Shown here one piece after another: positions 5,314 through 29,754 of a stretch of 33,278 nucleotides of DNA. The translations under genes and the position numbers were made by a program. The stretch is from contig JAPPIT010000003.1 in NCBI GenBank assembly GCA_028820505.1, positions 1 to 33,278 of the forward strand. The letters are read 5' to 3'. A model generated the notes under the pieces. That model made no database searches. It was not told where the DNA came from and saw only the letters and a program-made list of their open reading frames with translations. This DNA comes from Defluviicoccus sp. GTDB taxonomy: Bacteria > Pseudomonadota > Alphaproteobacteria > MPNO01. How positions within the stretch are numbered: the stretch's first letter is position 1; each line of letters starts with the position of its first letter.

Positions 5314-5392
5314 GGATGGACACTAGCACCCTTCCTCTCCCCTGTGGCACCATATGTCGCAGATCTCGCCGCACATTCAGGGAGCGCAAGCC

Positions 5393-5935
5393 ATGGCATA
5401 TACGCTTGAGGAGTTCTGTCGGGACTGCCGCGCGCATCTTGAGGAAGACCCCGGCCCGCAGGGCCGCGAGCAGGTCCGCCTCGACCTCGAACGGCTGCTG
5501 CAGGTGCCCGAATTCGTCGAGGAATATTGCGGTCCGGGTGTCGAGCGCGGCGTCCATATGCTTTATGACGACCCCGATCTCGGCTTCCAGGTGCTGGCCC
5601 ACATCAATGCCAAGGGCCGGGTTTCGCCGCCGCACGACCACGGCGCGTCCTGGGCGATCTACGGCCAGGCGACGAAATACACCGACATGACCGAGTGGGA
5701 ACGCCTGGATGACGGTTCCGATCCCGGTCGCGGCGAAGTCAGGGAAGAGAAGAAATACCGCCTGACGCCGGGCCATGCGGGGATCTACGCCGACGGCAAG
5801 ATCCATTCCATCGACTATCCCGACGACGCCCGTTTCGTCCGGGTGACCGGAACCAATCTCGACGAGATCAACCGGATCGCCTTCAACCGCGAGACCGGCA
5901 CGATCCAGCAGATGGGCCCGCAGATCGCGAGCTAG
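5393..5935 (+). CDS. Cupin-fold protein, putative metal-dependent enzyme
   Basis: A 180-residue cytoplasmic protein with a double-stranded beta-helix pattern. An alpha-helical N-terminus (about 1-55) leads into the first cupin motif PPHDHGASWAIYG, with metal-binding candidates His81 and His83, and a later His138 in the segment GKIHSIDYPDD. This resembles the cysteine-dioxygenase-like cupins annotated as predicted metal-dependent enzymes of the double-stranded beta-helix superfamily. The substrate is unknown. The ATG at 5393 is preferred over an upstream in-frame ATG at 5354 because AGGGAG sits about 8 nt before it and the upstream residues look random. It stands alone, divergent from the MFS gene. 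Confidence 0.75.
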   Translation: MAYTLEEFCRDCRAHLEEDPGPQGREQVRLDLERLLQVPEFVEEYCGPGVERGVHMLYDDPDLGFQVLAHINAKGRVSPPHDHGASWAIYGQATKYTDMTEWERLDDGSDPGRGEVREEKKYRLTPGHAGIYADGKIHSIDYPDDARFVRVTGTNLDEINRIAFNRETGTIQQMGPQIAS

Positions 5936-6056
5936 GCCGCTACCTCTCCACCACGGCCCCGATCTCTCGTACGGCGACCGTCGGCATCGCGGCGGCGGCG
6001 CGCATCCTGTATTCCTTGCGCGAATCCGCCGTTCGCCATTTCGGGATGCCGCCATC

Positions 6057-7388
6057 TTGTCTGTCGCGTCGCGGCTCGGCCCTGCGGCGCCGGTCGCGCC
6101 CCTCTTCGCCGTCGTCTGGTTCCTCGTGCTCCTGCGCATTCTGTGGCGGGATGCGCCGGTCGACGACGCGGCGACGCTGGCGCTCGGGCTTCTGTTCGCG
6201 ATCGGCATCGCGCGCGTCCGGGGGCATACCCGGGTGCTCGCTACCGCATTGGCGCTGGCCGCCCTGGGCTCGGCCGCGGCGCTCGACGACTGGTGGGCGC
6301 TGTGGCGCGGGTTGAGCGACGCGACGACCTTCGCTGCCTTCTTCGTCACCCTCCTGGTTCTGCGCACGACGGCGGAACGGCGGCCCGAGACGCTCCGTAC
6401 CCGCCATCTGATGGCGCTTCTGGACCCCCGGCAGAGGTCCACGGCGACGCTATACGGCGCCAACGTCATGGGCTCGGTGCTGGTGGTCGGCGCGCACGCG
6501 ATCCTCGCCCCGGTACACGACCGGAACGCGCCGGAGCCGGAACGTCGGCGAGCCGCCATCATCGCCCTGCGCGGCATGGGACTCGCGGGGCTCTGGTCGC
6601 CGTTCTGGGTCGCGATGGCGGTCGGCTTCCAGCATTTGCCCGACGTGCCGTTGTGGTCGGTGATGACGCTGGGCCTCGCTCTCGCCATTCCCGGACTGAT
6701 CCTGGGCCAGGTCATGGCCGGGGCCTTCCAGGGTGGGGCGCGGACCGCGCTCGCCGCGCTCCTGCCGGTGGTGCCGCCGGTCGCGATCGCGGCGGCGACG
6801 GTCGTCGGGTTGGCGAGCTTCGCCCCGCTGCGGCCGCTGGAAGCGCTGTTGCTCGGAATCCCGCTGGTCTGCGCCGCCGCCCAGATTCAGCTCGGCCGGC
6901 GGGCGATTTGGGAGATCGTTCGCGTGTCCTACGACCGCATGCCTTCGGTGCTGGGCGAGATGGTGATCGTCACCTGCGCGTTCGTTCTGGGCCGGGTCCT
7001 GGTCAGCGGGCTCGGCGTCCTCGATCCGGCGCTCTGGCCCGGCCCGAAGGCGCTGCCGGCCCCCGCCATCATCGCTTTGATGGTGGTCGTCCCGGCGGCG
7101 CTCGCGCTGTTCGGCCTCCACCAGATCGTGACCATCACGGTATTCCTGGTCCTGTTCACCCAGGTGCCGACCGGGGTGGCGGACCTGGTCCTGTTCCAGT
7201 GCGGGCTTGTTTCCTGGTCCATCGCCTCGATGATCGGGCTGTCGGCGATATCGACCGTGGCGGCGGCGTCGTTCTTCCGCGTTCGCCTCGAGCGCGTCGC
7301 CTTCGGCGCCAACCTGGCCTTCGGCGCCGCGATAGCGGTGCTGGGCACGGCGATCCTGTCGCTGCTGAACGCCGCGCTCGTCGCATAG
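6057..7388 (+). CDS. Polytopic membrane protein of unknown function
   Basis: A 443-residue protein made almost entirely of hydrophobic stretches, roughly 10-13 membrane segments (for example about 12-30, 38-53, 90-103, 134-151, 199-222, 231-252, 300-319, 334-354, 357-371, 378-403 and 414-440). A cytoplasmic loop near 105-130 is rich in Arg and Glu. The arrangement of short polar breaks inside hydrophobic hairpins (such as around 180 and 383-390) recalls ion-transporter-superfamily permeases, but I recognise no specific signature, so no substrate is proposed. The start is TTG at 6057 without a strong ribosome-binding site and is uncertain. The next gene downstream is Rieske oxygenase 1, 82 bp away behind a palindromic operator, so joint function is not certain. 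Confidence 0.7.
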   Translation: MSVASRLGPAAPVAPLFAVVWFLVLLRILWRDAPVDDAATLALGLLFAIGIARVRGHTRVLATALALAALGSAAALDDWWALWRGLSDATTFAAFFVTLLVLRTTAERRPETLRTRHLMALLDPRQRSTATLYGANVMGSVLVVGAHAILAPVHDRNAPEPERRRAAIIALRGMGLAGLWSPFWVAMAVGFQHLPDVPLWSVMTLGLALAIPGLILGQVMAGAFQGGARTALAALLPVVPPVAIAAATVVGLASFAPLRPLEALLLGIPLVCAAAQIQLGRRAIWEIVRVSYDRMPSVLGEMVIVTCAFVLGRVLVSGLGVLDPALWPGPKALPAPAIIALMVVVPAALALFGLHQIVTITVFLVLFTQVPTGVADLVLFQCGLVSWSIASMIGLSAISTVAAASFFRVRLERVAFGANLAFGAAIAVLGTAILSLLNAALVA

Positions 7389-7412: not shown

Positions 7413-7428
7413 TTTGTATACATACAAA
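7413..7428. promoter_or_regulatory. Operator-like palindrome before Rieske gene 1
   Basis: TTTGTATACATACAAA is a perfect inverted repeat of 7 bases around AC. Inside it TGTATACA (7415-7422) is itself a perfect palindrome. It is strikingly AT-rich in a GC-rich neighbourhood and lies 43 bp upstream of the oxygenase ATG. The shape and size resemble operators of GntR/FCD regulators, which often control aromatic oxygenase genes, but no regulator gene is in the window. The TATACA core could also serve as a -10 element, which would fit repression by promoter occlusion. Confidence 0.55.
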
Positions 7429-7470: not shown

Positions 7471-8499
7471 ATGACCTTCGTCAGGAACGCGTGGTACGTG
7501 GCGTCCTGGGCGAGCGAGCTGACGCAGGCGCTCCAACGCCGGACGATCCTCGGCGAGGATGTGGTTCTTTACCGGACCGGCGACGGCGCGCCGGTGGCGC
7601 TGCGCGACCGCTGCCCGCACCGGCTGCTGCCGCTGTCGAAGGGACGCCTGATCGATGACAGGGTCCAGTGCGGCTATCACGGGCTGGTCTTCGACCGGTC
7701 CGGCACCTGCGTCCACGTGCCGGGACAGGCGGTAATCCCGCCCAACGCCCGCGTGAGGAGCTACCCGGCGGCCGAACGGCTGGGGCTGATCTGGATCTGG
7801 ATGGGCGATCCGGACATGGCGGATCCGGCGGAGATCTACGACCTTCCCGAGTACCACCGGCCGGAATGGGGCGTCGCCCACGGGGATGCGCTCCACGTCA
7901 AGGCCGACTATCTGCTGCTGTGCGACAATCTGAGCGATCCTTCGCACGTCGAATACGTCCACCCGACCACCTTGGGCAGCCCGAGCTCCGAAGGGGTCGG
8001 CGTCGAGTTCGAGGAGGAGGATTGGGGCGTGACCACCCACCGATGGTCGCTGGACTCCGAACCCATCGGCTTCGCCAGGGCGTTCGGCAATTTCGACGGG
8101 CGGGTCGACCGCTGGCAGTACTACCATATGCACACGCCATCCACCGCGATCATCGATTTCGGAACCGCGCCGGCCGGGACCGGATTCAAGGCCAAGGCGG
8201 GCGGGTTCGACAACTGCATCCGGGTGTTCTCGTGCCACTTCATGACGCCCGAGACCGAGACGAGTTGCTACGATTACTGGCTGCACGTGCGCAATTTCGG
8301 CATCGACGACCCGTCCGTCGGAGAGGGCATTTCCGGGCAGTTCCGCATCGCCTTCGCCGAGGACAAGGAGGTGCTGGAAGCCATCCAGTGCGAGGAGGAC
8401 AGGTTCGAGGGCGGCACCCGGGTGGGACTCGACCTCGATGCGCCGGCGGCGCTGTTCCGCCGCAAGATCGACCGGCGGGTCAGAACCGAAGCAGCGTGA
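7471..8499 (+). CDS. Rieske non-heme iron oxygenase, VanA/dicamba-type (copy 1)
   Basis: Catalytic subunit of a Rieske oxygenase, which uses O2 and electrons from a separate reductase to hydroxylate or O/N-demethylate an aromatic substrate. The 342-residue protein begins NAWYVASW, typical of VanA-like enzymes. Rieske cluster ligands are Cys48, His50, Cys67 and His70. The mononuclear iron site is DNLSDPSHVEYVH with His159 and His164, and Asp298 in FAEDKEVLEAIQ; Asp156 can bridge the two centres. Spacings match vanillate O-demethylase and dicamba monooxygenase. The ATG at 7471 follows GGAGG by about 7 nt. It shares only the fold with the other three copies and has an unusual Cys-rich stretch near 250-266. 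A DUF1185 gene follows 10 bp downstream. The substrate is unknown. Confidence 0.9.
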   Translation: MTFVRNAWYVASWASELTQALQRRTILGEDVVLYRTGDGAPVALRDRCPHRLLPLSKGRLIDDRVQCGYHGLVFDRSGTCVHVPGQAVIPPNARVRSYPAAERLGLIWIWMGDPDMADPAEIYDLPEYHRPEWGVAHGDALHVKADYLLLCDNLSDPSHVEYVHPTTLGSPSSEGVGVEFEEEDWGVTTHRWSLDSEPIGFARAFGNFDGRVDRWQYYHMHTPSTAIIDFGTAPAGTGFKAKAGGFDNCIRVFSCHFMTPETETSCYDYWLHVRNFGIDDPSVGEGISGQFRIAFAEDKEVLEAIQCEEDRFEGGTRVGLDLDAPAALFRRKIDRRVRTEAA

Positions 8500-8509
8500 G
8501 GAGGCCGCG

Positions 8510-9094
8510 ATGAGCGCCGAAGTCAGGAAGACCAGCATCGTCGTCGAGGAAATCCGTTCGGACATAGGCCGCCCGGTCGACCCGCCGACCCGCAAGGCGG
8601 CGGCGATCGCGGTGATCAAGAACCCGTTCGCGGGACGCTACGAGGAGGATCTGACGCCGCTGATGGATATCGGCGCCGAGCTCGGCGGGACGCTGGGAGA
8701 CATGTGCGTGAACGCGCTCGGCATCCGCCCCGATGAGGCGGAGAGCTACGGCAAGGCGGCGATCGTGGGCGAGCAGGGAGAGTGGGAGCACGCCGCCGCG
8801 ATCCTGCATCCGAAGCTCGGCGCGCCGCTGCGCAAGGCGGTCGAGAAAGGCGCGGCGCTGGTCCCCTCGGTCAAGAAGATGGGCGGGCCGGGCACCCCGA
8901 TCGACATCCCGCTCGGCCACAAGGATGCGGCCTATGTCCGCAGCCATTTCGACGGGATGGAGGTCCGCCTCGCCGACGCCCCGCGCGCCGACGAGATCCT
9001 GGTCGCCGTCGCGGTCACCGACTCCGGCCGCCCCTTCCCCCGCGTGGGCGGCCTCACTACGGACGAGGCCAAGGGCGAGGACGGGCTCCGTTGA
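8510..9094 (+). CDS. Amino acid synthesis family protein (DUF1185)
   Basis: A 194-residue protein that I recognise as the AA_synth/DUF1185 family from segments such as EEIRSDIGRPVDPPTRKAAA, NPFAGRYEEDLTPLMDIGAELG, KAAIVGEQGEWEHAAAILHP and SVKKMGGPGTPIDIPLGHK. Despite the family name, the biochemical role is not established. The start ATG has a strong GAGGAGG 6 nt upstream that overlaps the end of the Rieske gene, so the two are one operon. Members of this family frequently accompany oxygenase and amidohydrolase genes, which hints at a catabolic job here, perhaps ring or amide processing; that is inference. The stop codon forms part of one copy of a 9-bp direct repeat around the next repeat element. 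Confidence 0.85.
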   Translation: MSAEVRKTSIVVEEIRSDIGRPVDPPTRKAAAIAVIKNPFAGRYEEDLTPLMDIGAELGGTLGDMCVNALGIRPDEAESYGKAAIVGEQGEWEHAAAILHPKLGAPLRKAVEKGAALVPSVKKMGGPGTPIDIPLGHKDAAYVRSHFDGMEVRLADAPRADEILVAVAVTDSGRPFPRVGGLTTDEAKGEDGLR

Positions 9095-9208: not shown

Positions 9209-10372
9209 CTAAAGAACCTCGGGCAAGCGCTCTGCCGGCGGGGTGTTGCGGCTTCGGCCGGAGGCGACCTTGCCGTCGATGATCACCATGCCGACGCCGG
9301 GAATATCGCCGATCCCGACCGACTCCAGCAGGTCCTTGCCGGCGGTGTGCTGGGCGCGGTCGATCAGGACGAAATCGGCGGCGCGGCCCTCTTCGATCAG
9401 CCCGCAGTCGAGCTCGCGCATCCGCGCGGTGTTCCCGGTCGCGAAGCAGAATGCGATCTCGGCCGGCACGTCGCCCAGCGCCGACAGCATCGAGACCATC
9501 CGGAGGATTCCGAGCGGCTGAACCCCCGAGCCCGCCGGGCCGTCGGTGCCGAGGATGACGCGGTGGAGCTGGTCGAGTTCGCGCGCGGTCCGGAGCGCGA
9601 ACAGGGCCGAGGCCTCGTTGCCGTTGTGGACGATCTCGATCCCGGCCTGGCACTGCTCGCAGAGGCACGCAATCTGGTCCCGCGGCAAAGAGGTGTGCCC
9701 GCCGTTGATGTGCCCGATGATGTCGGGTCCCGTCTCCAGCACGATGTCGGCGTCGATCAGCCCGGAGCCGGGGATCGAAGGCCCGCCGGTATGGATCGTC
9801 GACTGGATGCCGTACTTGCGCGCCCAGCCGACCATCTTCTTCGCCTCCTCGCCGGTCTTGACGCCGCCGAGGCCGATCTCGCCCAAGAGCTTGACTCCGG
9901 CCTCGGCGAGGAACCGGAAATCGTCCTCTTCCATCCCGGTTTCGAGGATCGGCGCGCCGGCGTGGACCTTGACGCCGCCCGGCGGAAAGGACGAGAAGGC
10001 GCGCTGCGCAGTGATGCCGAGGGCCACCACGCCCTTCGGGTCGCGCGGCCGCCCGGGGAGGTGGACCTCGCCGGCGGAGATCATCGTCGTCACGCCGCCA
10101 TGCATCGTGGAGTCGATCCAGTTGAGCTGGCTCTGGCGCGGCGTCCAGTCGCCGAATACCGGGTGGACGTGGCTGTCGATCAGCCCGGGCGCGAGCGCGA
10201 CCCCCTTGGCGTCGACCACGACGTCGGCACCGGCGGTGTTGCAGTCGGCCTCCTTGCCGAAGGCGGCGATCCGGCCGTCCTCGGCGACCACGGTGTCGGC
10301 GTCGAGAATGGGGTTCTCCAGCGCCCCGGACAGGAGCAAGCCGATATTCCTGATGACCAGCTTTTCAGCCAT
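9209..10372 (-). CDS. Enamidase-type amidohydrolase
   Basis: A 387-residue amidohydrolase closely resembling enamidase, which hydrolyses 6-oxo-1,4,5,6-tetrahydronicotinate to 2-formylglutarate and ammonia in anaerobic nicotinate breakdown. Metal ligands line up: His68 and His70 (DSHVH), Glu165 in LLGEIGLGGVK in place of a carboxylated lysine, His194 (IHTGGPSIPGS), His221 (GHINGG) and Asp277 (GTDGPAGSG). The segments LHGG/MHGGVTTMISAG, HLPGRP and the C-terminal SRNTPPA are also as I recall them from the characterised clostridial enzyme. It is the last gene of an operon with two Rieske oxygenases, 101 bp after Rieske 2. The exact substrate here may be another cyclic enamide. No 6-hydroxynicotinate reductase gene is visible. 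Confidence 0.82.
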   Translation of the reverse strand: MAEKLVIRNIGLLLSGALENPILDADTVVAEDGRIAAFGKEADCNTAGADVVVDAKGVALAPGLIDSHVHPVFGDWTPRQSQLNWIDSTMHGGVTTMISAGEVHLPGRPRDPKGVVALGITAQRAFSSFPPGGVKVHAGAPILETGMEEDDFRFLAEAGVKLLGEIGLGGVKTGEEAKKMVGWARKYGIQSTIHTGGPSIPGSGLIDADIVLETGPDIIGHINGGHTSLPRDQIACLCEQCQAGIEIVHNGNEASALFALRTARELDQLHRVILGTDGPAGSGVQPLGILRMVSMLSALGDVPAEIAFCFATGNTARMRELDCGLIEEGRAADFVLIDRAQHTAGKDLLESVGIGDIPGVGMVIIDGKVASGRSRNTPPAERLPEVL

Positions 10373-10473
10373 GACGCGCGCCCCCGGATCGGTGTTCCCA
10401 GGGCGCGAACATCCCCGAAGCGGCGGGCCGGTTCAAGACCCGCCGGCGGCTGCGAGAGGTATTGCGTGGCGGC

Positions 10474-11526
10474 CTATTCGCCGGCGGCGGCCAGCGGCGC
10501 AACGCCCCGCTCCGCGGCGATGCGGTTCTCGATGATGCGGCGCGCCTGGATGCCGCCGCCGTCATGGTTGATGTCGATCCGGGGCCGGTCGGGAGCGGTA
10601 TTTATGTTGTCCTGCTGGAGCTGGATGATCTCCAGGTCCTCCAGGAAGGCGGTGTGCACGTTCTCGTAGAGGAGATCGGTCACCCACGGCTCGTCGATGC
10701 GGAAATCGTGCGCCTGGGCCCAGAAATAGTGGGTCGTCGTCCCGGTCTCGGGCGTGATCGCGTTGAGGTTCCGCATGGAGAAGCCCCGGCTGCGGTCGCC
10801 CTCGGGCGCGCCGGTGCCGGCGACCGCCCCGCCGATGTCGAGGCGGACGAAGGCCGGCGGGGTGTACTCGATGATCTGCCAGCGGTCGATATGCTGGTCC
10901 GGCGCGAACCCGCCCGCCTTCTGGAAGAACGGCGGCGGCGGGCTGTCGAGCACCCAGCGGGTGACGCGGACCAGCTCGCCCTCGCGCTCCGCCTTCATCG
11001 GCGTCTCGGCGACCGCGTCGGTGCCGAGCGTCGTCGGGTGGATGTAGCTGAGATGGGAGAGATCGAGCAGGTTCTCGACCAGCAGCACGTAGTTGCCCTG
11101 GAGGTCGAGCTTTTCACCGCGGGCGCGCCAGTCGGGATCGTCGATCCAGTGGAAGTCCTCGATCAGGTCGGGGTCGGCCGCCGCCGGGTCGCCCATCCAG
11201 ATCCAGATCCAGTGGTAGCGCTCGACCGTCGGGAACGCCCTGACCCTTGCGCCGGGCGGGACCGCGGTCTGGCCGGGAACCCGGATGCAGCGGCCGGACG
11301 GGTCGTAGAGCAGGCCGTGATAGGGGCATTCGACATTGTCGCCCCGGAGCTTGCCCTTCGACAGCGGCGCGTGGCGGTGGCAGCAGCGGTCCTCGAGCGC
11401 CACCGGCGCGCCGTCCTCGCGGCGGTAAAGCACGACCGGGATGTCGAGCAGAGTCCGCCGCAACATGTTCTGGCGGCCGACCTCGCGGTCCCAGGCGGCC
11501 ACGTACCACGCGTTCTCGATGAACAT
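10474..11526 (-). CDS. Rieske non-heme iron oxygenase, VanA-like (copy 2)
   Basis: A 350-residue catalytic subunit. It opens MFIENAWYVAAWDREV; Rieske ligands are Cys48, His50, Cys67 and His70, and the catalytic iron site is ENLLDLSHLSYIH with His158, His163 and Asp297 (FLEDLEIIQLQQ). C-terminal ITPETGTTTHYFW and the IDINHDGGGIQARRII end are shared with copies 3 and 4, making these three a subgroup. GGGGAG lies 6 nt upstream of the ATG. It is the middle gene of a three-gene minus-strand operon, 88 bp after Rieske 3 and 101 bp before enamidase. No ferredoxin or reductase is encoded next to it. Substrate unknown; demethylation or hydroxylation of an aromatic acid is the usual chemistry. Confidence 0.9.
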   Translation of the reverse strand: MFIENAWYVAAWDREVGRQNMLRRTLLDIPVVLYRREDGAPVALEDRCCHRHAPLSKGKLRGDNVECPYHGLLYDPSGRCIRVPGQTAVPPGARVRAFPTVERYHWIWIWMGDPAAADPDLIEDFHWIDDPDWRARGEKLDLQGNYVLLVENLLDLSHLSYIHPTTLGTDAVAETPMKAEREGELVRVTRWVLDSPPPPFFQKAGGFAPDQHIDRWQIIEYTPPAFVRLDIGGAVAGTGAPEGDRSRGFSMRNLNAITPETGTTTHYFWAQAHDFRIDEPWVTDLLYENVHTAFLEDLEIIQLQQDNINTAPDRPRIDINHDGGGIQARRIIENRIAAERGVAPLAAAGE

Positions 11527-11614
11527 CCCGCTCTCCCCAGTGCGTCCCGTCCGGGTCCAGAAAAGCGAAGGGCGGCACCGGGATGCCGCCGTATCGCCGT
11601 CAACGGGCCGGAAG

Positions 11615-12688
11615 CTACTCGGCCGCGATCGCCGCTCCCGCTTCCGCCCGTTCGGCCGCGATCTTGCGGTCGATCATGGTGCGGGCGGCAATGCCGCCGG
11701 CGTCCTGGTTGGTCTCGATCGTCGGCCGGTCGTCCCAGTTTTCCTCCTGCAGGTCGAAGACCTCCCAGTCCTGGTGGAAGGCCTGCCAGATCTGCTTGTA
11801 CTGCATCTCGACGAAATCGGGCTCGATCGGCTTTCCGGGAACCTGATAGGAATTGGACCAGAAATAGTGCGTGCTGGTCTCGGTCTCCGGCGTGACGAAG
11901 TTGAGGTTGTGGAAGCCGAACCCGTTGCTCGGCACGTCGCGTTCGAGCTCGGTATGCCCGAACTCCTTGCCTTCCGCCGCGTCGGGAGCCGCGCCGGTAA
12001 ACAGCCGTACCGCGCCCGGCATCCGGAACTCGATGATCTGCCAGCGGTCGACGATGGTCTCCTCCGGCCAGTCGCACATCTTCTGGTAGGTGGGCGGCGG
12101 GTTCTGGCCGACGGTCCAGCGCGCTACCGTCACCGAGTCCTCGTCCTTCAGCGTCTTGAGCACCGCGTGCTCCGCGACCGCGGCGTTGCCGATCGTCGAA
12201 CGGTGGACGAACGCCAGGTGCGAGAGGTCCAGCAGGTTGTCGATGACCAGCTTGTAGTTGCCGTTGACGTGGAAATAGGTGCCCTTGTCGCCCCAGTCCT
12301 CGGCGGATTTCCACGGGTAGGGCACGATCAGGCTTTCGTCCGCCAGCGCCGGATCGCCTGTCCAGATCCAGATCCAGTTGTATTTCTCGACCACCGGAAA
12401 GGCGCGCACCTGCGCTCCCGGCGGGATCGTCGTCTGGCCCGGCACATGGACGCACTTGCCGCTGACGTCGAACTGGAGCCCGTGATAGTGGCAGGAAAGG
12501 ATATTGCCCTGCACGCTGCCCTTTCTGAGCGGCATGCGGCGATGGCAGCAACGGTCCTCGAAGGCCACCGGGTCTCCTTCCTCGGTGCGCCAGAAGACAA
12601 TCTTCTCGTTGCAGATCGTGCGTCCGAATGGCTGGCGCGTGATCTCGTGCGGCTCCGCGGCCACATACCAGCAGTTCTTGAGGAACAT
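11615..12688 (-). CDS. Rieske non-heme iron oxygenase, VanA-like (copy 3)
   Basis: A 357-residue catalytic subunit, first gene of its operon. It opens MFLKNCWYVAAEPHEI; Rieske ligands are Cys47, His49, Cys66 and His69; the iron site has DNLLDLSHLAFVH with His157, His162 and Asp307 (FHQDWEVFDLQ). It carries a small insertion near 232-255 (DAAEGKEFGHTELERDVPS) compared with the other copies and ends in an Ala/Glu-rich tail. AAGGAG precedes the ATG by about 6 nt and a promoter is visible 45-75 bp upstream. Two different oxygenases in one operon suggests two successive oxidations of one compound, or a hetero-oligomer; neither is proven. All catalytic ligands are intact, so both should be active. 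Confidence 0.9.
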   Translation of the reverse strand: MFLKNCWYVAAEPHEITRQPFGRTICNEKIVFWRTEEGDPVAFEDRCCHRRMPLRKGSVQGNILSCHYHGLQFDVSGKCVHVPGQTTIPPGAQVRAFPVVEKYNWIWIWTGDPALADESLIVPYPWKSAEDWGDKGTYFHVNGNYKLVIDNLLDLSHLAFVHRSTIGNAAVAEHAVLKTLKDEDSVTVARWTVGQNPPPTYQKMCDWPEETIVDRWQIIEFRMPGAVRLFTGAAPDAAEGKEFGHTELERDVPSNGFGFHNLNFVTPETETSTHYFWSNSYQVPGKPIEPDFVEMQYKQIWQAFHQDWEVFDLQEENWDDRPTIETNQDAGGIAARTMIDRKIAAERAEAGAAIAAE

Positions 12689-12762: not shown

Positions 12763-12832
12763 TCTCGGCCCGCCCGTCCGGGGCGGCTATAGTCGGGGAT
12801 CGGAAAAACCCGGAAGCCCGAGGGAGGCCGCC

Positions 12833-13225
12833 ATGCAAAACCGCGCGATGTACCCCGAAACCATCCATCCGCCGCTCGGCGCCTATGCGCACGCGATCGA
12901 GGTCCCGGAATCGGCCAAGACGATGTTCATCGCCGGCCAGGTCGGGATCGACGCCCACGGCAACGTGCCCGCCGACTTCGCCGCCCAGGCCGACCTTGCC
13001 TGGCAGAACCTCATGGCCATCCTCGAATTCAACGGGATGCGCATGAAGGACGTCGTCAAGATCACCCATTTCCTGACCGACGCGGCGAACCTGCCCGCCT
13101 ATAACGACGTGCGGAGCAAGTATCTCGGCGAGGAGCGGCCGGCATCGACGCTCCTGATCGTGGCCGGCCTCGCCCGCCCGGACCTGCTGGTGGAGGTCGA
13201 GATGGTGGCCGCGATCCAGCGGTAG
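12833..13225 (+). CDS. RidA/YjgF-family protein lacking the catalytic arginine
   Basis: A 130-residue trimer-forming Rid-fold protein. The pattern ETIHPPLGAYAHAIEV, FIAGQVGIDAHGNVPADFAAQ, NLMAILEFNGMRMKDVVKIT and the C-terminal LLVEVEMVAA is that of the family. In deaminating RidA enzymes, which hydrolyse reactive enamines and imines, a conserved Arg follows Pro-Ala near residue 105; here the segment is RPASTLLIV with Ser105. By family knowledge this points to one of the Rid subgroups without that arginine, so imine deaminase activity is doubtful. GAGGGAGG lies 5 nt before the ATG, and TATAGT at 12788 may be its -10. It is divergent from the Rieske-enamidase operon, which suggests a linked role in that pathway, possibly binding or isomerising an unstable intermediate. 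Confidence 0.85.
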   Translation: MQNRAMYPETIHPPLGAYAHAIEVPESAKTMFIAGQVGIDAHGNVPADFAAQADLAWQNLMAILEFNGMRMKDVVKITHFLTDAANLPAYNDVRSKYLGEERPASTLLIVAGLARPDLLVEVEMVAAIQR

Positions 13226-21024: not shown

Positions 21025-22193
21025 TTGGCGATCTCGGCGCAGCTGGCCTCGACCGTCTCGAGCGCCTCCGCGATATGGTCTTCGCTCGCGATCAGCGGCG
21101 GCAGCAGGCGCACCATATTGTCGGCCGCGAGCACGTTCAGGAGGCCCTTGTCGAACATCTTCCCGCCGAGCTCCGCGTTGGGGCCGACGCATTTCATGCC
21201 CCACATGAAACCGACGCCGCGCACCTCCTCGATCACCCCCTGGTAGCGCCGGGCGAGGCCGCGAAGCGCCGCGCCGAGAGCCGCTCCGCGCTCCCTGACG
21301 CCCTCGAGGAACCCGTCCTCCAGCACGATGTCGAGCACCGCGTTGGCCGCGGCGCTGGCCAGCGGATTGCCGCCGAACGTGCTGCCGTGCGTGCCGGGCA
21401 CCATGCCGACGGCCGCCTCCTCGTCCACCAGGCAGGCGCCGACCGGGAAGCCGCCGCCGAGCCCCTTGGCGACCGCCATGATGTCGGGCGGTGCGTCCGC
21501 GGCCTCGTGGGCGAAGAGATATCCGGTCCGCCCGATGCCGCACTGCACCTCGTCATAGATCAGCGCCAGCGCGTGCTCGTCGGCGAGCGCGCGCAGCCCG
21601 CGCAGGAATTCGGGATCGGCGGGCCGGATGCCGCCCTCCCCCTGCACCGGCTCGACGACGATGCCTGCCGTCTCCGGGCCGATGGCCGCCTTCACCGCGT
21701 CGAGGTCGCCATAGGCCACCCGGTCGAAGGCGTCGAGCATCGGGCCGAAGCCGCGACGGTGCGCGTCGCTCGCGCCCGCCGCGATCAGCGCCAGCGTCCG
21801 GCCGTGGAAGCTGTCCGCGAAGACGACGAACCGGTAACGCTCCTCCCGCCCGGACTCGAACTGGAATTTGCGCGCCGTCTTGAGCGATGCCTCCATCGCC
21901 TCCGCGCCGGAGTTGCAGAAGAACACCGTGTCGGCGAAGCTCGCCGCCGTCAGGCGCTCCGCGAGCCGGGTCTGTCCGGGGATGTGGTACAGGTTCGACG
22001 TGTGCCACAACTGCCCCGCCTGGCGGGTCAGCGCGTCCACCAGATGCGGGTGGCAATGGCCTGCCACCGTGACCGCGATGCCGGCGCCGAAATCGAGGAA
22101 TCGTCGGCCGTCAGCAGCAAAGAGATAGGGTCCCTCTCCGCGTTCGAACGCGATGTCCGTGCGCCCGTAGCTCGGCATGACGGCCGGAATCAT
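21021..22193 (-). CDS. argD: Acetylornithine aminotransferase
   Basis: Class III PLP aminotransferase of 390 residues that converts N-acetylglutamate semialdehyde to N-acetylornithine, and may also serve the succinyl-diaminopimelate step. Signatures are [18 protein letters not shown] at 32-49, [19 protein letters not shown] around 91-109, DSFHGRT at 127-133, EPVQGEGG at 181-188, [13 protein letters not shown] at 212-224 and PLP lysine Lys243 in [14 protein letters not shown]. The ATG at 22193 has GGGGAA about 6 nt upstream. It is the first gene of argD-argF-hslO-lipoprotein. A leader hairpin sits just upstream. Confidence 0.95.
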
Positions 22194-22204
22194 GACTGTT
22201 CCCC

Positions 22205-22230
22205 GAAAGAAAGCGGGCGTCCCTGCCCGC
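22205..22230 (-). terminator. Hairpin with T-rich tract in the argD leader
   Basis: Read on the minus strand, GCGGGC (22230-22225) and GCCCGC (22218-22213) flank a 6-base loop and are followed by TTTCTTTC. It lies after a promoter candidate, TTGACT (22269-22264) with TATATT 19 bases further (22244-22239), and about 12 bases before the argD start. It could end transcripts from mscS or act as an attenuator for argD. No leader peptide is evident. Confidence 0.45.
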
Positions 22231-22293
22231 GGAACGCGAATATATGTTTCCCGTCCGCGATTTAGTCAACGCCGCTGCCGGTCCCGGCGGGCG

Positions 22294-23448
22294 TTATTCC
22301 TCGGCGTTGTCGGACTCCGGCGGGACGAAGATTTCCGGCGCGTCGCCGCCGCTCTCGACATAGAGCGTCCGGGACGGAAACGCGAAGTCGGAGCCGGCCT
22401 GTTCGACGATCGCCTTGATGCGGTAGGCGAGCCGCTCCTTGATCGCGAGCCACTCGCCCCAACTTGTCGTCACCGTGAAGCAATAGACCATGATGTCGAT
22501 CGAGGAGTCCGAAAACCTGTCGATGCGGACGAAAGTCGGAACTTCCGGCGGGTGGGCGAAGGCGTCGTCTTCGAGGAGAAACGTCTCGATCCCGTCCCGG
22601 ATTCGACGCAGTTGTTCGACGGTCGTGCGGTATTCCACCCCGATCATCCAGTAGATGCGCCGATGGGTCATCCGGGTGTAGTTGACGACGGCGGTATCGG
22701 ACAGTTTGGAATTGGGGACATAGATCGGCGCCTTGTCGAACTGCCGCACCCGGGTCGAACGAAATCCTATCGCCTCGACCGTGCCCTCGACGCCGCCGTC
22801 GATCTTGATCCACTCGCCATGCGCCAGCCGGCGTTCGCCGATGATCAGAAGCCCGGCGATCAAGTTGCGGAAAAGGTCCTGAGCGCCGAGCGCGACCGCG
22901 ACTCCGATCAGCCCGAGCCCGGCCAGGATCGGCGCGACCTCGATCCCCCAGATCTCGAGAACGGTGATCGCGCCGATTGCGACGAACGCGATCTTGAGGC
23001 CGCGTATCGTCCAGTCCACCACCTCGGCGCCGATTTTATCCTCGATCCGCGCGGCCAGGCCGCGCAAGGGTTCGGCGAGACGGTAGAGGGCCCAGAACAG
23101 GACGAACACCGCCAGCGACCGCAGCAGATCGTCGGCGATTCGTTCGGCCAGCCCGGCGAACGGCAGGATCGCCTTCGCCAGGAACAGGCCGATTACGAGC
23201 GGCAAGAACCGCAGGGGCGGCTCCAGCGCCGCGACCGCCTCGTCGTCGAGCCTGCTCTCGGTTCTCTCCGCCCAGCGCGCCAAGCGGCGGACGACCACGC
23301 GGGTGAAGACTCCGCGCAGCAGCAGACAGGCCACGAACACCAGCACGGCCGCCACGACCGTGCCGACCCGCAACCCGAGCACGTCGGTTTGCAATATATC
23401 GGCGACGGGCCGGACGAATGCCGAAACGATGTCCAGCGTCTGTTCCAT
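22294..23448 (-). CDS. Mechanosensitive ion channel of the MscS family
   Basis: A 384-residue inner-membrane channel that releases solutes upon hypo-osmotic shock. Hydrophobic segments lie at about 28-46, 80-98, 108-126, 148-168 and 172-203. The last contains the pore-lining helix ILAGLGLIGVAVALGAQDLFRNLIAGLLII, with the Gly/Ala packing pattern and the GAQDLFRN bend of MscS. The beta domain follows with DGGVEGTVEAIGFRSTRVRQFDKAPIYVPNS and then a cytoplasmic cage domain. It has more membrane helices than the three of E. coli MscS, so it belongs to an extended MscS type. The gene is divergent from the CoxL1 gene and 100 bp upstream of argD; no clear functional link. Confidence 0.92.
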   Translation of the reverse strand: MEQTLDIVSAFVRPVADILQTDVLGLRVGTVVAAVLVFVACLLLRGVFTRVVVRRLARWAERTESRLDDEAVAALEPPLRFLPLVIGLFLAKAILPFAGLAERIADDLLRSLAVFVLFWALYRLAEPLRGLAARIEDKIGAEVVDWTIRGLKIAFVAIGAITVLEIWGIEVAPILAGLGLIGVAVALGAQDLFRNLIAGLLIIGERRLAHGEWIKIDGGVEGTVEAIGFRSTRVRQFDKAPIYVPNSKLSDTAVVNYTRMTHRRIYWMIGVEYRTTVEQLRRIRDGIETFLLEDDAFAHPPEVPTFVRIDRFSDSSIDIMVYCFTVTTSWGEWLAIKERLAYRIKAIVEQAGSDFAFPSRTLYVESGGDAPEIFVPPESDNAEE

Positions 23449-23634
23449 CCCGTCCTCTTATACAGGACTTCGGCGGCCGGGATCGTGCCGGACGGCGGCG
23501 TTGTTGCCGCCCTGCCCTTCCCCTATCATCCGGCGTCCGCTAATGACAGCGCCGATTTCGGCGGCCGTGGAACGCATTGCCGCCCCGAGAGGGATTCGGC
23601 CGGCGGCAGCGGCGGAGCGAGTGGGAACTATTCG

Positions 23635-25959
23635 ATGACCAAGTTCGGTATCGGCCAGGGCGTGCCACGCTGGGAAGACCCGCGCCTGCTGCGGGGCGGC
23701 GGGCGTTACAGCGACGACCTGAACCGGCCAGGCCAGGCTTATGGCTACGTGCTGCGTTCGCCTCACGCTCATGCCGAGATACGCTCGATCGACACCGCCG
23801 CCGCGCGCGCCGCCCCCGGCGTGCTCGCGGTCTATACCCATGACAATGTCGAGGCTGCCGGGCTGGGCAGCATTCCTTGCGCGGTGCCACGCAACAAGGC
23901 GGACGGCTCGCCCATGTTCACCCCGCCCAACCTGCCGCTCCGCAAGGGCCGGGTCCGGCTGGTCGGCGACTACGTGGCGTTCGTCGTGGCGGAGACCCAC
24001 GACCGGGCGCGCGACGCCGCAGAGGCGATCGACGTCGATTACGCGCCGCTCCCCTCGGTCACCGCGACCGCCGACGCGCTTGCCGACGGGGCGCCCGCCG
24101 TCTGGTCGGAGGCGCCCGACAATGTCTGCTTCGTGTTCGAACAGGGCGACGAGGACGCCGTCGATCGGGCCTTCGCCAGAGCCCGCCACGTCACCAGGCT
24201 CGACTTCATCGTCACCCGCGTCGCCGTCGCTCCGATGGAGCCGCGCGCCTGCATCGGCGAGTTCGACCCGTTCACCGGGCGCTATACCCTTTACACCGGC
24301 ACCCAAGGTCCGCACGGGGTCCGCATGGCCACCGCTTCGCCCATCCTCAAGGTGCCGGAGGGCGACCTTCGCGTCGTCAGCCACGACATGGGCGGCGCCT
24401 TCGGGATGCGCTCCGGCCCGTATTGCGAATACACGATGTGCCTCTTCGCCTCCAAGATGCTCGGCCGCCCGGTCAAGTGGACGGGCGACCGGGCCGAGGG
24501 ATTCATGGTGGACGACCAGGCGCGCGACAACATCTCGACCGCCGAGCTCGCGCTCGCCGAAGACGGCGAGTTCCTCGGCTTCAGGGTCCGCACGACCGCC
24601 AATCTCGGGGCTTACCTGACCCTGCTCGGCCCGCACTCCTCGACCAACAATCTGGGCTCGCTCGCCGGCCCCTACCGGACGCCGGCGATCCATACCCATG
24701 TAACGGGCGTCTTCACCAATACCGCGTCGACCGGCCCCTATCGCGGCGCGGGCAGGCCGGAGGCGGCCTACGCGATCGAGCGGGCGATCGATACCGCGGC
24801 GGACGAGATGGGGATCGACCCCGCGGAGCTCAGGCGCCGCAACTACATCGCGCCGGACGCCTTCCCGTTCGCGACCGGCCTCGTCTTCACCTACGATTCG
24901 GGCCAGTTCGAGACCAACATGGACCGCGCGCTGGCGCTGGTGGATTACGGGGACCGCGATGCCCGCCGGGACGACGCCGAGTCGCGGGGCAAGTTGCTCG
25001 GGGTCGGCATTTCCAACGTGATCGAGCAATCCGCCGGCGGTTTTCCGGAATGGGCGCAGATCCGGTTCGACCCCTCGGGCTCGCTGACGCTGACCATGGG
25101 CACGCACAACCACGGGCAGGGACACGAGACGGTGTTCCGCCAGATACTGTCCGACAAGCTCGGCCTGGAGTTCGAGCAGATCCGCATCTCCCAGGGCGAC
25201 TCGGACGAAGTCATGGCAGGCACGGGGACCTTCGGATCGCGCTCTTCGGGCGTGGGCGGCGCCTCGATCGTGCTGGCGGCGGACAAGGTGATCGACAGAT
25301 GCCGCAAGATCGCCGCCCACAGGCTGGAAGCGGCGGAGGAGGATATCGAGTTCGCCGACGGCACCTTCACGGTCGCGGGAACCGATCGGACGCTCGGGCT
25401 GGTCGACGCGGCCAAGCTCGCCCAATCGTTCATGACGGTTCCCCCGGGATTCGAACCCGGAATCAACGAATGGGCCGCCTGGACGCCGCCCGCGCCGACC
25501 TTTCCCAACGGGTGCCATGTCTGCGAGGTGGAGATCGACCCCGAAACCGGCGCGGTCGAGGTCCTGCGCTATGCCGCGGTCGACGATGTCGGCACCGTGC
25601 TCAACCCGCTATTGATGGAAGGCCAGCTGCATGGCGGGATCGTCCAGGGGGTGGGCCAGATCCTGATGGAGAACGTGGTCTGGGACCGCGAGTCCGGCCA
25701 GTTGATCGCCGGATCTTTCATGGATTACTCGATGCCCCGCGCCGACGACCTTCCGAGCTTCGAGATGGAGATCAACGAGGTGCCGACCCCGACCAACCCG
25801 CTCGGGATCAAGGGCGCGGGCGAGGCCGGGTGCGTCGGCGCGATGCCTGCGCTGATGAACGCGATCGTCGATGCGTTGAGCCCCCTCGGCGTGGCTGCGA
25901 TCGACATGCCGGCGAGCCCCGAAACGGTGTGGCGCGCCATCGACCGGGCCCGCCATTAG
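23635..25959 (+). CDS. Molybdopterin hydroxylase large subunit, CoxL-like (copy 1)
   Basis: A 774-residue Mo-cofactor subunit of the xanthine dehydrogenase/CO dehydrogenase family. The fumarylacetoacetase-like a/b hammerhead lies in about 15-145 and the Mo-binding domains in 150-760. Cofactor motifs are GGAFG at 253-257, GPYRGAGRPE at 367-376 and GQGHE at 494-498. The likely catalytic Glu is Glu730 in GIKGAGEAGCVG. The PYRGAGR loop is of the form II type; the AYxCSFR loop of true form I CO dehydrogenase is absent, so CO oxidation is not expected. No genes for the 2Fe-2S (CoxS) or FAD (CoxM) subunits are near. The ATG at 23635 begins 22 residues before the conserved GRYSDD. CoxG follows 27 bp downstream, implying one operon. 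Substrate unknown, probably an aromatic or N-heterocyclic compound. Confidence 0.88.
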   Translation: MTKFGIGQGVPRWEDPRLLRGGGRYSDDLNRPGQAYGYVLRSPHAHAEIRSIDTAAARAAPGVLAVYTHDNVEAAGLGSIPCAVPRNKADGSPMFTPPNLPLRKGRVRLVGDYVAFVVAETHDRARDAAEAIDVDYAPLPSVTATADALADGAPAVWSEAPDNVCFVFEQGDEDAVDRAFARARHVTRLDFIVTRVAVAPMEPRACIGEFDPFTGRYTLYTGTQGPHGVRMATASPILKVPEGDLRVVSHDMGGAFGMRSGPYCEYTMCLFASKMLGRPVKWTGDRAEGFMVDDQARDNISTAELALAEDGEFLGFRVRTTANLGAYLTLLGPHSSTNNLGSLAGPYRTPAIHTHVTGVFTNTASTGPYRGAGRPEAAYAIERAIDTAADEMGIDPAELRRRNYIAPDAFPFATGLVFTYDSGQFETNMDRALALVDYGDRDARRDDAESRGKLLGVGISNVIEQSAGGFPEWAQIRFDPSGSLTLTMGTHNHGQGHETVFRQILSDKLGLEFEQIRISQGDSDEVMAGTGTFGSRSSGVGGASIVLAADKVIDRCRKIAAHRLEAAEEDIEFADGTFTVAGTDRTLGLVDAAKLAQSFMTVPPGFEPGINEWAAWTPPAPTFPNGCHVCEVEIDPETGAVEVLRYAAVDDVGTVLNPLLMEGQLHGGIVQGVGQILMENVVWDRESGQLIAGSFMDYSMPRADDLPSFEMEINEVPTPTNPLGIKGAGEAGCVGAMPALMNAIVDALSPLGVAAIDMPASPETVWRAIDRARH

Positions 25960-25986
25960 CCTGAAGCCGGCCAAGGGGAGGCTGCT

Positions 25987-26607
25987 TTGGAATTCGAGAA
26001 TACGTTCAACGTCCAGGTTCCGGTCGACGAGGCGTGGGCCATCCTGACCGATGTCGAGCGGATCGCCCCCTGCATGCCGGGCGCCGAGCTTACCGAAGTG
26101 ATCGACGAGAACAGCTTCAAGGGCAAGGTGTCGGTCCGTCTCGGCCCGGTCGCGCTGACCTTCGCGGGCGATGCCCGGTTCGAGGACCGCGACGACGCCG
26201 GCTACTCCGCCCGGGTCAAGGCCCAGGGACGGGACTCCAAGGGCCGCGGCGGCGCCAACGCGAATGTCGATTTCCGCCTGATCCCGGCCGAGGACGGCAC
26301 CACCGCGGTCGAGATCCGCACCGACCTGCAGCTCTCCGGCTCGGTCGCCCAGTACGGCCGCGGCGTCGGCATGATCAAGGACGTCGCGACGCAGCTGATC
26401 GACCGGTTCGCCGACGCGCTGCACGAGCAGATCGTGGCCGAACGCGGTGCGTCCGACGAGGCGAAAGAAGCCTCCGCCGACCCGGACGACGCCCCGCCCA
26501 CGCCCGCTGCCAAGCCGATCTCCGGTTTTTCGCTCGGCGCCAGCGTGATGTGGAATGCCCTCGTCCGCTGGCTGAAGGGTCTCTTCGGCGGCCGTTCAGA
26601 CGGCTGA
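25987..26607 (+). CDS. CoxG-type SRPBCC protein with C-terminal membrane anchor
   Basis: A 206-residue protein. Residues 1-150 form an SRPBCC domain with the CoxG hallmarks FNVQVPVDEAWAILTDVERIAPCMPGAEL, and GRDSKGRGGANANV and VAQYGRGVGMI follow. A flexible Asp/Ala/Pro linker (about 157-177) leads to an amphipathic, hydrophobic tail near 180-201 (SLGASVMWNALVRWLKGLF) that could sit on the membrane. By family knowledge CoxG ties CO-dehydrogenase-like enzymes to the membrane and to quinone. It may therefore link CoxL1 to the respiratory chain. The start is TTG at 25987 with GGGGAGG 5 nt upstream. Its last 12 bases overlap the end of the convergent CoxL2 gene. Only one CoxG serves three large subunits in this window. 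Confidence 0.85.
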   Translation: MEFENTFNVQVPVDEAWAILTDVERIAPCMPGAELTEVIDENSFKGKVSVRLGPVALTFAGDARFEDRDDAGYSARVKAQGRDSKGRGGANANVDFRLIPAEDGTTAVEIRTDLQLSGSVAQYGRGVGMIKDVATQLIDRFADALHEQIVAERGASDEAKEASADPDDAPPTPAAKPISGFSLGASVMWNALVRWLKGLFGGRSDG

Positions 26608-28929
26608 GTCCGTCTCCGCGGCCGCGATCAGGCCCCGGATGCGGTCCGGGCTCAGCGGCAGCCGCACGTCGTCGCATTCGAGGCCGAGCGCGTCGAACAC
26701 CGCGCCGGCGATCGCAGCGGGCGCGCCGATCGTGCCGCTCTCGCCCACCCCCTTGTAGCCGCCCTCGGTGATCGGCGACGGCGTTTCCTGGTGGACGATC
26801 TCGATTCCGGGCGCCTCGAACGCTCCGGGGATCATGTAGTCGGCGAAGTTCGCCGACTGGAGCTGCCCCGACTCGTCGTAGCGGACCTCTTCGAGGAGCG
26901 CGGCCCCGATACCCTGCATGACGCCGCCCCAGGTCTGGCCCTCGACGATCTCCAGGTCGGCGATCCTGCCGCAATCCTCGGCGACGACGTATTTGAGGAT
27001 TTCGACCTCGCCGGTCTCCGCATCGACGGCGACGACGGCGATGTGCATCGCCGCCGAGGTCGCGGCGCCGGGCGTGTCGAAGGTGGCCGCGGCCTGCAAC
27101 CCGTGCGTCAGCCCTTCCGGCAGGCCGGGGCTGGGCGAATGGGCGAAATCGGCGATTTCCTCGAAGGTCGCGAACCGGTTGGAATTTTGCCCGTCCGCAA
27201 ACCGGCCGTCGGCGAAGACCACGTCGTCGGGTTCGACCTCGAGCTTTATCGCGGCGAACCGCTTCATCTGTTCGAGCGCCTGACGCGCGGCCCGCTGCAA
27301 CGCACCGCCGCCCGAGACCAGCCCGCGGCTCGCGAACGCGCCCGAACCGTGCGGCATCGTCTCGGTGTCTGCGCAGGCGACGCGGACGCGCGCGGCTTCG
27401 ACCCCCAGCATGTCCGCCACCATCCGGCGCATCGCCTTGAAGGGCTCCTGTCCCATCGACGGGATGGTCACATAGGCCTCGACCGCGCCCGACCGGGCGA
27501 TCCGCAGCACCGCGGAATCGTAACCCGGGACGTCGACCATTCCGCGCCCGCGAAACACCGTGCAGCCCATGCCGGTGGGTTCGATGAAACAGGAAACGCC
27601 GATACCGACCCTGCGCCCGTTCCCGTCATGCTTCTCTTCGACATCGGCGGCATCCAGAAGCTTCGCAAGCAGTCCCTCGTAATCGCCGCTGTCGATGATT
27701 CCGCCGGTCGCCGTCCTGAACGGAAAGGAGCCGGTCGGCACGAGGTTCCGGCGCCTGACATCTATCCGGTCCGCGCCGATCCTGCGGGCGAGCGCGTCGA
27801 CCAGGCTCTCGGTGACCAGCGGGGTGAGGCCGAACCCGACGCCGCGATAGGCGCCGGTCGGGCACTTGTTGGTCGCGACCGCGCGGGAGGTGTAGTCGAT
27901 GAACGGGATCGCATAAGGTCCGGGCAGCCCGACCAGCGCGGTGTGCGGCTCGAGCGAGGGGCCGAGCGGATACGGGCAGTAAGCGCCGGTGTCGCACCAG
28001 ACTTCCGCCTTCAGCCCCAGAATCCGGCCGTCCCCGTCGGCGGCGAGCGAGGCCTCGATCACGGCGTCCCGGGCGTGGTAGCCGCGCTCGAGATGCTGGA
28101 GCCGGTCCTGGGTCCATTTCACGGCGCCGCCAAGACGTCGCGCCGCGAAGGCGACGATGGCTTCCTCCGGGTAGAGCGGCATCTTCACCCCGAACCCGCC
28201 GCCGATATCGGTCGGGCGGACCCGGATCCGGGATTCGGGCAGACGCAGGAACCGCGCGATGCCGTCCCTCAGGATATGCGGCACCTGGGTGGGCGACCGG
28301 ACTTCGACCACGTCTTCGCGGCGGTCGTAGACCGCCAGGCAGCCGCAGCACTCGATCGGCGACGGCGCGACCCGGGGATGGCGGAACCGGCCGGACACGA
28401 CGACGGGCGCGCCGGCAAACGGGTCGGCATCGGCATCGGTCACGAACCGGCTCTCGAACAGCGTGTTGCTGCCGAGCGAGTCGTGGACGAGGGGGGCGCC
28501 CTCGCGGAGCGCCGCGGCCACGTCGGCGATCGCGTCCGCAGGCTCGTAGTCGACAGCGACCGACGAGGCCGCGTCCTCCGCGGCGTAGGGATCGCGCGCG
28601 ATAACGGCCGCGACGATCTCGCCCGCGAAGCGGACTTCGGACTCCGCGATCAGCGGCCAGGCGGTAGGGCGGTAGCGGTACCAGTCGGCCTCGTCCATAC
28701 GCGCCGCAATGGGCGCGGTCGCGCCGGCGAGGTCGTGGCCGACGAAGATCGCGACCACGCCGTCCTTCGCAAGCGCGGCGCCGGCATCGATCCCGGCAAT
28801 TCGCGCCCGCGCGAAAGGGCTTCTCAGGAAGTAGACGTGAAGACATCCCGGCGGGTCGAAATCGTCGATAAAGCTGCCGCGGCCGAGCACCAGGGCCCGG
28901 CGGTCGTCGATCTCGTCTCGCGTGCTCAA
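26596..28929 (-). CDS. Molybdopterin hydroxylase large subunit, CoxL-like (copy 2)
   Basis: About 777 residues if started at the TTG at 28929, which has AGGGGG about 7 nt upstream; an in-frame ATG at 28983 lacks a ribosome-binding site. The N-terminus LVLGRGSFIDD and the hammerhead fit the family. Mo-cofactor motifs are GGGFG at 243-247, TGAYRGVGFG around 358-367, and the catalytic Glu near 730 in GYKGVGESGTIGAP. In the loop, phenylalanine replaces the arginine or proline seen in the two other copies, which changes the active-site wall and suggests another substrate. A Cys-rich insertion ECCGC lies near 193-197. The gene is divergent from the SDR gene (72 bp between starts) and tail-overlaps CoxG. 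No small or medium subunit genes nearby. Confidence 0.87.
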   Translation of the reverse strand: MSTRDEIDDRRALVLGRGSFIDDFDPPGCLHVYFLRSPFARARIAGIDAGAALAKDGVVAIFVGHDLAGATAPIAARMDEADWYRYRPTAWPLIAESEVRFAGEIVAAVIARDPYAAEDAASSVAVDYEPADAIADVAAALREGAPLVHDSLGSNTLFESRFVTDADADPFAGAPVVVSGRFRHPRVAPSPIECCGCLAVYDRREDVVEVRSPTQVPHILRDGIARFLRLPESRIRVRPTDIGGGFGVKMPLYPEEAIVAFAARRLGGAVKWTQDRLQHLERGYHARDAVIEASLAADGDGRILGLKAEVWCDTGAYCPYPLGPSLEPHTALVGLPGPYAIPFIDYTSRAVATNKCPTGAYRGVGFGLTPLVTESLVDALARRIGADRIDVRRRNLVPTGSFPFRTATGGIIDSGDYEGLLAKLLDAADVEEKHDGNGRRVGIGVSCFIEPTGMGCTVFRGRGMVDVPGYDSAVLRIARSGAVEAYVTIPSMGQEPFKAMRRMVADMLGVEAARVRVACADTETMPHGSGAFASRGLVSGGGALQRAARQALEQMKRFAAIKLEVEPDDVVFADGRFADGQNSNRFATFEEIADFAHSPSPGLPEGLTHGLQAAATFDTPGAATSAAMHIAVVAVDAETGEVEILKYVVAEDCGRIADLEIVEGQTWGGVMQGIGAALLEEVRYDESGQLQSANFADYMIPGAFEAPGIEIVHQETPSPITEGGYKGVGESGTIGAPAAIAGAVFDALGLECDDVRLPLSPDRIRGLIAAAETDSAV

Positions 28930-29001
28930 GGTTCGGCCCCCTACCAAAGTTCCGCGCGATGGCGATGATAGTTCGGCTGTCATGGCAAGGGGAGTTGCAC
29001 G

Positions 29002-29754
29002 ATGTCGAACCGTCACCAAGGCCGGGTCGCGGCGGTGACCGGCGGCGCCACGGGGATCGGCCAGGCCTTCGCCCAGCGTCTTGCGGCGGAGGGCGCGGCG
29101 GTCGCCGTGGTCGACCTGGAGGACGCGGCGGAAACGATGGCGATACTGTCCAACGCGGGGGCGGAGTGCGCATCGTTCCCGGGCGACGTCACGTCTGAGG
29201 ACGACGTCGCCCGCCTATCCGCCGAGATCGCGGAACGCTTCGGGCGCTGCGACATCCTGGTCAACAATGTCGGGATCTACCCCAACGAGCCGTTCGAGGC
29301 GGTGACCTTCGCCAAGTGGCGGCAGGTCATGGCGATCAACCTCGATTCGATGTTCCTGACGGCGAAGGCATTCGTGCCCGGCATGGTGGAGCGCGGCTGG
29401 GGCCGTATCGTCAACATGGCGTCCAACACCTTCGGCACGCCGGTGACCGGCTACAGCCACTACATCGCCAGCAAGGGCGGGGTGATCGGGTTCACCCGCG
29501 CGCTCGCCAGCGACCTCGCGGACAGGGGCATCACCGTCAACGCGATCGCGCCCAGCCTGGTTCGCACGCACGGAACGCAGGTGACCAACCCGCGGTCCGA
29601 CGAACGCTTCGAGGCCGTTTCTTCGATGCAGGCGATCAAGCGCACGCAGATGCCCGAGGACCTCGCCGGCACGCTCTCCTTCCTCGCGAGCGACGATGCC
29701 GCGTTCGTTACCGGACAGACCCTCTATGTCGATGGCGGCTGGGTGAGGCCGTGA
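29002..29754 (+). CDS. Short-chain dehydrogenase/reductase (SDR)
   Basis: A 250-residue classical SDR using NAD(P)(H). The nucleotide site is TGGATGIG at 13-20, with Asp38 after the second strand (VVDLED) favouring NAD(H). NNVG lies at 88-91 and the catalytic residues are Ser141, Tyr154 and Lys158 (SHYIASKGG). The end FVTGQTLYVDGGW is standard. It probably oxidises an alcohol or reduces a keto group of an intermediate in the local pathway; the substrate is not predictable. GGGGAG lies 8 nt before the ATG. Its stop overlaps the CoxL3 start as GTGA, so the two are translationally coupled, and Rieske 4 follows, forming an SDR-CoxL3-Rieske operon. Confidence 0.9.
   Translation: MSNRHQGRVAAVTGGATGIGQAFAQRLAAEGAAVAVVDLEDAAETMAILSNAGAECASFPGDVTSEDDVARLSAEIAERFGRCDILVNNVGIYPNEPFEAVTFAKWRQVMAINLDSMFLTAKAFVPGMVERGWGRIVNMASNTFGTPVTGYSHYIASKGGVIGFTRALASDLADRGITVNAIAPSLVRTHGTQVTNPRSDERFEAVSSMQAIKRTQMPEDLAGTLSFLASDDAAFVTGQTLYVDGGWVRP

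Follow-up and report, generated by a model that had tools for sequence, protein, structure and literature searches.

Enamidase is described from Eubacterium barkeri, the source of Protein Data Bank (PDB) entry 2vun. In aerobic Azorhizobium/Bradyrhizobiaceae, nicotinate is degraded via 6-hydroxynicotinate and 1,4,5,6-tetrahydro-6-oxonicotinate (THON) to 2-formylglutarate, and the 6-hydroxynicotinate reductase (HNR) of strain SG-6C is reported to share 42% identity with its E. barkeri counterpart (PMC3511419). The 3,4-dihydroxypyridine dioxygenase KpiC has enamidase as its closest characterised relative, at 28% identity (PMC7356986). Comparative analysis of a 33,278-nucleotide stretch of Defluviicoccus sp. 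(GCA_028820505.1, contig JAPPIT010000003.1; hereafter the window), situated on contig C69 of a metagenome-assembled genome (MAG; G000) of 5.49 Mb in 228 contigs, indicated that its gene ENA probably supplies the enamidase step, the third, of the aerobic THON pathway for nicotinate. The following genes surround the enamidase:

7471-8499, plus strand: R3, a VanA/DdmC-type Rieske oxygenase of the nicotinate-operon clade (Pfam Rieske and VanA_C)
8510-9094, plus strand: DUF1185/AA_synth protein (PF06684, E 2e-74)
9209-10372, minus strand: ENA, enamidase (THON hydrolase) ortholog, 387 amino acids (phmmer to PDB 2vun, metal-ligand positions, HNR co-occurrence)
10474-11526, minus strand: R2, a VanA/DdmC-type Rieske oxygenase, 350 amino acids (Pfam Rieske and VanA_C)
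11615-12688, minus strand: R1, a VanA/DdmC-type Rieske oxygenase, 357 amino acids (Pfam Rieske and VanA_C)

The window gene is predicted to encode a genuine enamidase based on computed sequence homology and ligand conservation. A phmmer search matched residues 4-387 to 2vun with 372.7 bits and E 2.2e-110, including 173 identities over 384 positions (45.1%), compared to 30.8 bits and E 1.6e-6 for the next-best PDB match. Residues H68, H70, E165, H194, H221, and D277, which we take from the superfamily to be the binuclear metal ligands (two His of HxH, the bridging Glu, two His, and an Asp), were all matched in 2vun and were invariant across 11 orthologs. This was consistent with an earlier note on this DNA that had recognized an enamidase with the same metal ligands, including Glu165. 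The imidazolonepropionase and dihydropyrimidinase PDB families gave E 1e-4 or worse and the hutI profile, whose cut-off is 298 bits, reached 35 bits, such that a grouping with these enzymes, which the same note had named as contrary to its reading, did not occur as judged by search scores rather than a joint tree.

An enamidase-family member at E <= 1e-40 was identified in 25 of 27 genomes of the genus, family, and order of the window genome. In a wider sample of 385 alphaproteobacteria the distribution was bimodal, with an ortholog (70-100% identity) in 31 genomes and a separate set of ~40% paralogs. The orthologs with at least 70% identity formed one clade with full support (100/100), including named members from Bradyrhizobium, Afipia, Bosea, Rhodobacteraceae, Burkholderiales, and Granulosicoccus, and 2vun was placed as its weakly supported sister (82/51). 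ENA is the sole ortholog in its own genome, which holds one 40% paralog besides. This paralog (contig C100, L171:299-2103) is situated directly behind its own DUF1185 homolog, and the pair suggests a second lactam or enamide pathway.

The gene neighborhood shared by the orthologs includes the flavin adenine dinucleotide (FAD) and molybdenum (Mo)/FeS subunits of a Mo-hydroxylase, HNR, UPF0280, one or two DUF1185 genes, MarR, and a branched-chain-type ABC transporter, with a DUF1185 homolog present in 67 of 100 ortholog loci. HNR is a protein of 480-500 amino acids with an N-terminal cysteine motif and gave no PDB match; its label rests on cluster position and the published description, as the E. 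barkeri HNR was not compared directly. It was present in 30 of the 31 ortholog genomes versus 38 of the 354 others (Fisher p 1e-24, the genomes not being phylogenetically independent), and ortholog and HNR shared one contig in 21 of those genomes, mostly 4-12 kb apart. The aerobic setting proposed in the earlier note agrees with the occurrence of ENA orthologs in the nicotinate clusters of aerobic Azorhizobium/Bradyrhizobiaceae (PMC3511419). UPF0280 and DUF1185 were near-constant partners of HNR (L170:81-1557 and many ortholog loci), UPF0280 having a weak PDB match only (2o34).

Contig C67 of the window genome contains the FAD and Mo subunits, HNR (68% identical to the Bradyrhizobium HNR), UPF0280, and DUF1185, and HNR was also present in all five family relatives. 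Because C67 has no enamidase and the genome offers no ortholog besides the window gene, ENA was interpreted as the missing, relocated third step. The C67 Mo-hydroxylase would hydroxylate nicotinate at C6, the ferredoxin-dependent HNR would reduce 6-hydroxynicotinate to THON, and the window enamidase with its binuclear metal site would open the cyclic enamide of THON by hydrolysis, releasing 2-formylglutarate and ammonia. A POR/TPP-type oxidoreductase and a pyridine-nucleotide oxidoreductase were found beside HNR on C67, the former (2-oxoacid:ferredoxin-oxidoreductase-like) being a plausible supplier of reduced ferredoxin. The nicotinate dehydrogenase/HNR genes (C67) and the enamidase (C69), clustered in many ortholog loci, are not clustered in this MAG, and in this genus the ENA gene has probably moved from the HNR operon to a site beside three Rieske oxygenases. 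The enamidase pathway itself is already described and the gene arrangement in this genus is new; the earlier note had considered the pathway undescribed, and this part is withdrawn since the same enzyme belongs to the described aerobic route (PMC3511419) and the other two steps are on C67.

Weighing against this assignment are one genome with an ENA ortholog and no detected HNR (G108), the 38 genomes with HNR and no ENA ortholog, the split of the cluster over two MAG contigs, and a predicted ENA model with a predicted local distance difference test (pLDDT) value of 47.9 that was built from an 11-row alignment and is too poor for use. In several HNR operons (L215:3570-7342, L213, L214, L209, and L202), Hydantoinase_A/Hydantoinase_B (oxoprolinase-type) genes were identified, mostly directly behind UPF0280 or DUF1185 and in genomes where no ENA ortholog was found, and may open the THON lactam in place of the enamidase, to which they are not homologous.

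A further association with nicotinate catabolism involves R3 and DUF1185, both overlooked by the earlier note. The open reading frame of R3 opens at 7414, its conserved start is at 7471, and DUF1185 follows after 10 bp, both genes converging on ENA from the opposite strand. Counted at E <= 1e-95 in the 385-genome sample, the best R3 homologs occurred in 13 other genomes, 12 of them with HNR, and in 10 of the 13 the homolog start was 2.1-4.0 kb from the HNR start. R3 fell in a tree clade of 22 rows (support 99/97), 16 of which were labelled as HNR/enamidase-linked, and R1 and R2 were placed in a separate part of the Rieske tree. The typical order HNR-UPF0280-DUF1185(-DUF1185)-Rieske-substrate-binding protein-permease-ATPases was found again in loci of named Rhodobacteraceae, Kiloniellaceae, and Granulosicoccus, and the clade spans alpha-, beta-, and gammaproteobacteria, with many of the named ones marine. 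R3 and DUF1185 constitute a recurrent nicotinate-operon module, and the association between R3 and nicotinate operons is under-described and well supported.

The Rieske CxH...CxxH residues (C48, H50, C67, and H70) and the iron-site motif N-D-H-H/Asp (N153, D156, H159, H164, and D298) of R3 were invariant in 16 sequences. Its predicted model (pLDDT 90) had dicamba monooxygenase as best PDB match (template modeling score, TM ~0.9; 36% identity) and guaiacol O-demethylase as second-best fold match. The computed results are the homology, the conserved ligands, the co-occurrence, the linkage, and the clade membership; the reactions and the metals are inferred, as is, most of all, the R3 substrate. 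Due to the HNR linkage, the retained catalytic residues, and the demethylase-like model, R3 is proposed to feed the pathway with nicotinate, formed when a methylated pyridine carboxylate is oxidatively demethylated. It is tentatively suggested that the R3 clade comprises Rieske demethylases dedicated to nicotinate catabolism that form nicotinate from a methylated pyridine carboxylate, the first candidate being trigonelline (N-methylnicotinate).

Counting against this role, HNR is not a neighbor of the closest R3 orthologs, which are those of its own genus and of G013 (same order), no formaldehyde-handling gene was recognized in the R3-bearing operons, and nothing in the sequence identifies the substrate. 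Within its own genus, R3 adjoins ENA and DUF1185. Searches of the open literature gave nothing relevant on a Rieske enzyme for trigonelline or in nicotinate degradation, an absence that is weak as subscription papers were outside the scope, and a search on homarine likewise gave nothing relevant. No reductase (VanB-type) gene for R1, R2, or R3 was recognized in the immediate locus, a genome-wide search not having been made. FNR-like ferredoxin reductase genes adjoin the enamidase/HNR cluster in many Bradyrhizobium-type loci (L096, L120, L135, L160, and L165) and were absent from all nine R3-bearing ENA loci compared. A Rieske protein as alternative electron donor for HNR was rejected, as the catalytic domain of R3 is complete and both FNR and R3 are missing from many loci.

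The alternative that fared best retains the THON role of ENA and extends the demethylating function to the whole locus, with R1, R2, and R3 all channelling different pyridine carboxylates into nicotinate through demethylation or dealkylation. All three belong to the demethylase-rich VanA/DdmC type, and besides the R3 clade linkage a second Rieske subgroup is found near HNR in the same order; however, R1 and R2 have no linkage beyond the genus, and this extension is considered rather unlikely.

Improbable is the explanation of the earlier note, that R1 and R2 oxidize an N-heterocycle to a cyclic enamide that the enamidase opens, in an undescribed aerobic pathway. The two Rieske oxygenases do lie upstream of ENA as it had stated, on the same strand and with gaps of 88 and 101 bp, and the R1-R2-ENA order was kept in all five genus genomes examined. 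These amount to nearly one observation because they are 95-99% alike at ENA. The proposed operon is only partly supported: strand and spacing agree with it, but a weak terminator-like stem lies between R1 and R2:

11571-11590, minus strand: terminator-like hairpin (8-pair stem with T-rich tail; consensus match only)

Support from the hairpin is weak, as four terminator-like sites were found in the region compared to 2.4 in shuffles. The genome holds 31 VanA_C genes, and Rieske neighbors alone therefore say little. Beyond the genus copies, the nearest relative of R1 is a 65% paralog on contig C215 of the same genome, and the R2 orthologs (66-69%) that four genomes of the order contain are far from enamidase, those in G017, G010, and G013 adjoining an HtrA-type protease and transporter genes. 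The R1 and R2 homologs elsewhere showed no tie to enamidase or HNR, which speaks against the suggested ring oxidation to an enamide, and the ENA ortholog tracks HNR rather than R1/R2. In the sister genus (G005), the enamidase sits between an isochorismatase-family gene and a Mo-hydroxylase; with the R2 orthologs lying elsewhere, R1-R2-ENA is thus a recent local arrangement. In other genera of the order, a related Rieske subgroup (~46% to R2) is separated from HNR or enamidase by no more than ~10 kb, and in view of it a pathway link for R1/R2 may exist. From the sequence comparisons, R1 and R2 are best described as lineage-specific neighbors with no comparative link to the pathway.

That ENA is an amidohydrolase-fold ring-cleaving oxygenase rather than a hydrolase was rejected as very improbable. 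In favor of this reading, KpiC is a precedent for an oxygenase of this superfamily that acts in pyridine catabolism (PMC7356986); against it, KpiC has only its reported 28% to enamidase (its sequence was not compared directly), whereas ENA has 45% with every ligand kept and orthologs located in HNR pathways.

With ENA as the probable THON-pathway enamidase, the remaining genes of the window include one divergent from R1:

12833-13225, plus strand: RidA-family enamine/imine deaminase (PF01042, E 4.8e-23 on window 12800-13222)

RidA is a possible helper. Just upstream of R3 (window 5354-7388), a 193-amino acid protein and an apparent membrane protein of 443 amino acids had no Pfam or NCBIfam family match. 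Two CoxL-like molybdenum hydroxylase large subunits are encoded at 22177-25959 and 29316-32072, both on the plus strand, accompanied by a CoxG-like gene and a short-chain dehydrogenase/reductase gene (window 22177-32072), and a fourth VanA_C Rieske gene is situated at 32510-33094. RidA and the Mo-hydroxylases at 22-32 kb were not counted as parts of the system, no linkage evidence having been found.

Enamidase is not confined to anaerobic fermentation, since close HNR-tied orthologs were present in ~8% of the sampled alphaproteobacteria. The R3 clade offers a testable candidate, as these Rieske oxygenases are embedded in the nicotinate operons of several lineages and have no assigned role. Should R3 demethylate trigonelline, this compound, common in plants and algae, would enter the breakdown of vitamin B3 directly, providing aerobic and marine bacteria with a route for methylated nicotinate that is distinct from oxidative ring opening.

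Compared to the E. barkeri Ena (2vun, EC 3.5.2.18), ENA has full-length 45% identity, the six metal-ligand positions, and the SIPGS, HINGG, and SRNTPP motifs in common; the former derives from a nicotinate fermenter, whereas the latter is assigned to an aerobic alphaproteobacterial pathway and is not beside HNR. KpiC resembles ENA in belonging to the amidohydrolase superfamily and in acting in pyridine catabolism, and differs in its reported dioxygenase activity. Dicamba O-demethylase DdmC (3gke) and guaiacol O-demethylase (7qwt) were the best sequence and fold matches of R1-R3; R3 differs from them in belonging to a separate clade with linkage to nicotinate operons. The closest described system is the aerobic THON cluster of Azorhizobium caulinodans, Bradyrhizobium, Rhodopseudomonas palustris HaA2, and strain SG-6C (PMC3511419), with an enamidase orthologous to ENA and with nicotinate dehydrogenase, HNR, UPF0280, and DUF1185 that are also present in the window genome. 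The two differ in that enamidase and HNR are here on separate contigs, and in that the Bradyrhizobium THON loci examined have no R3-type Rieske gene whereas the window genome has one.

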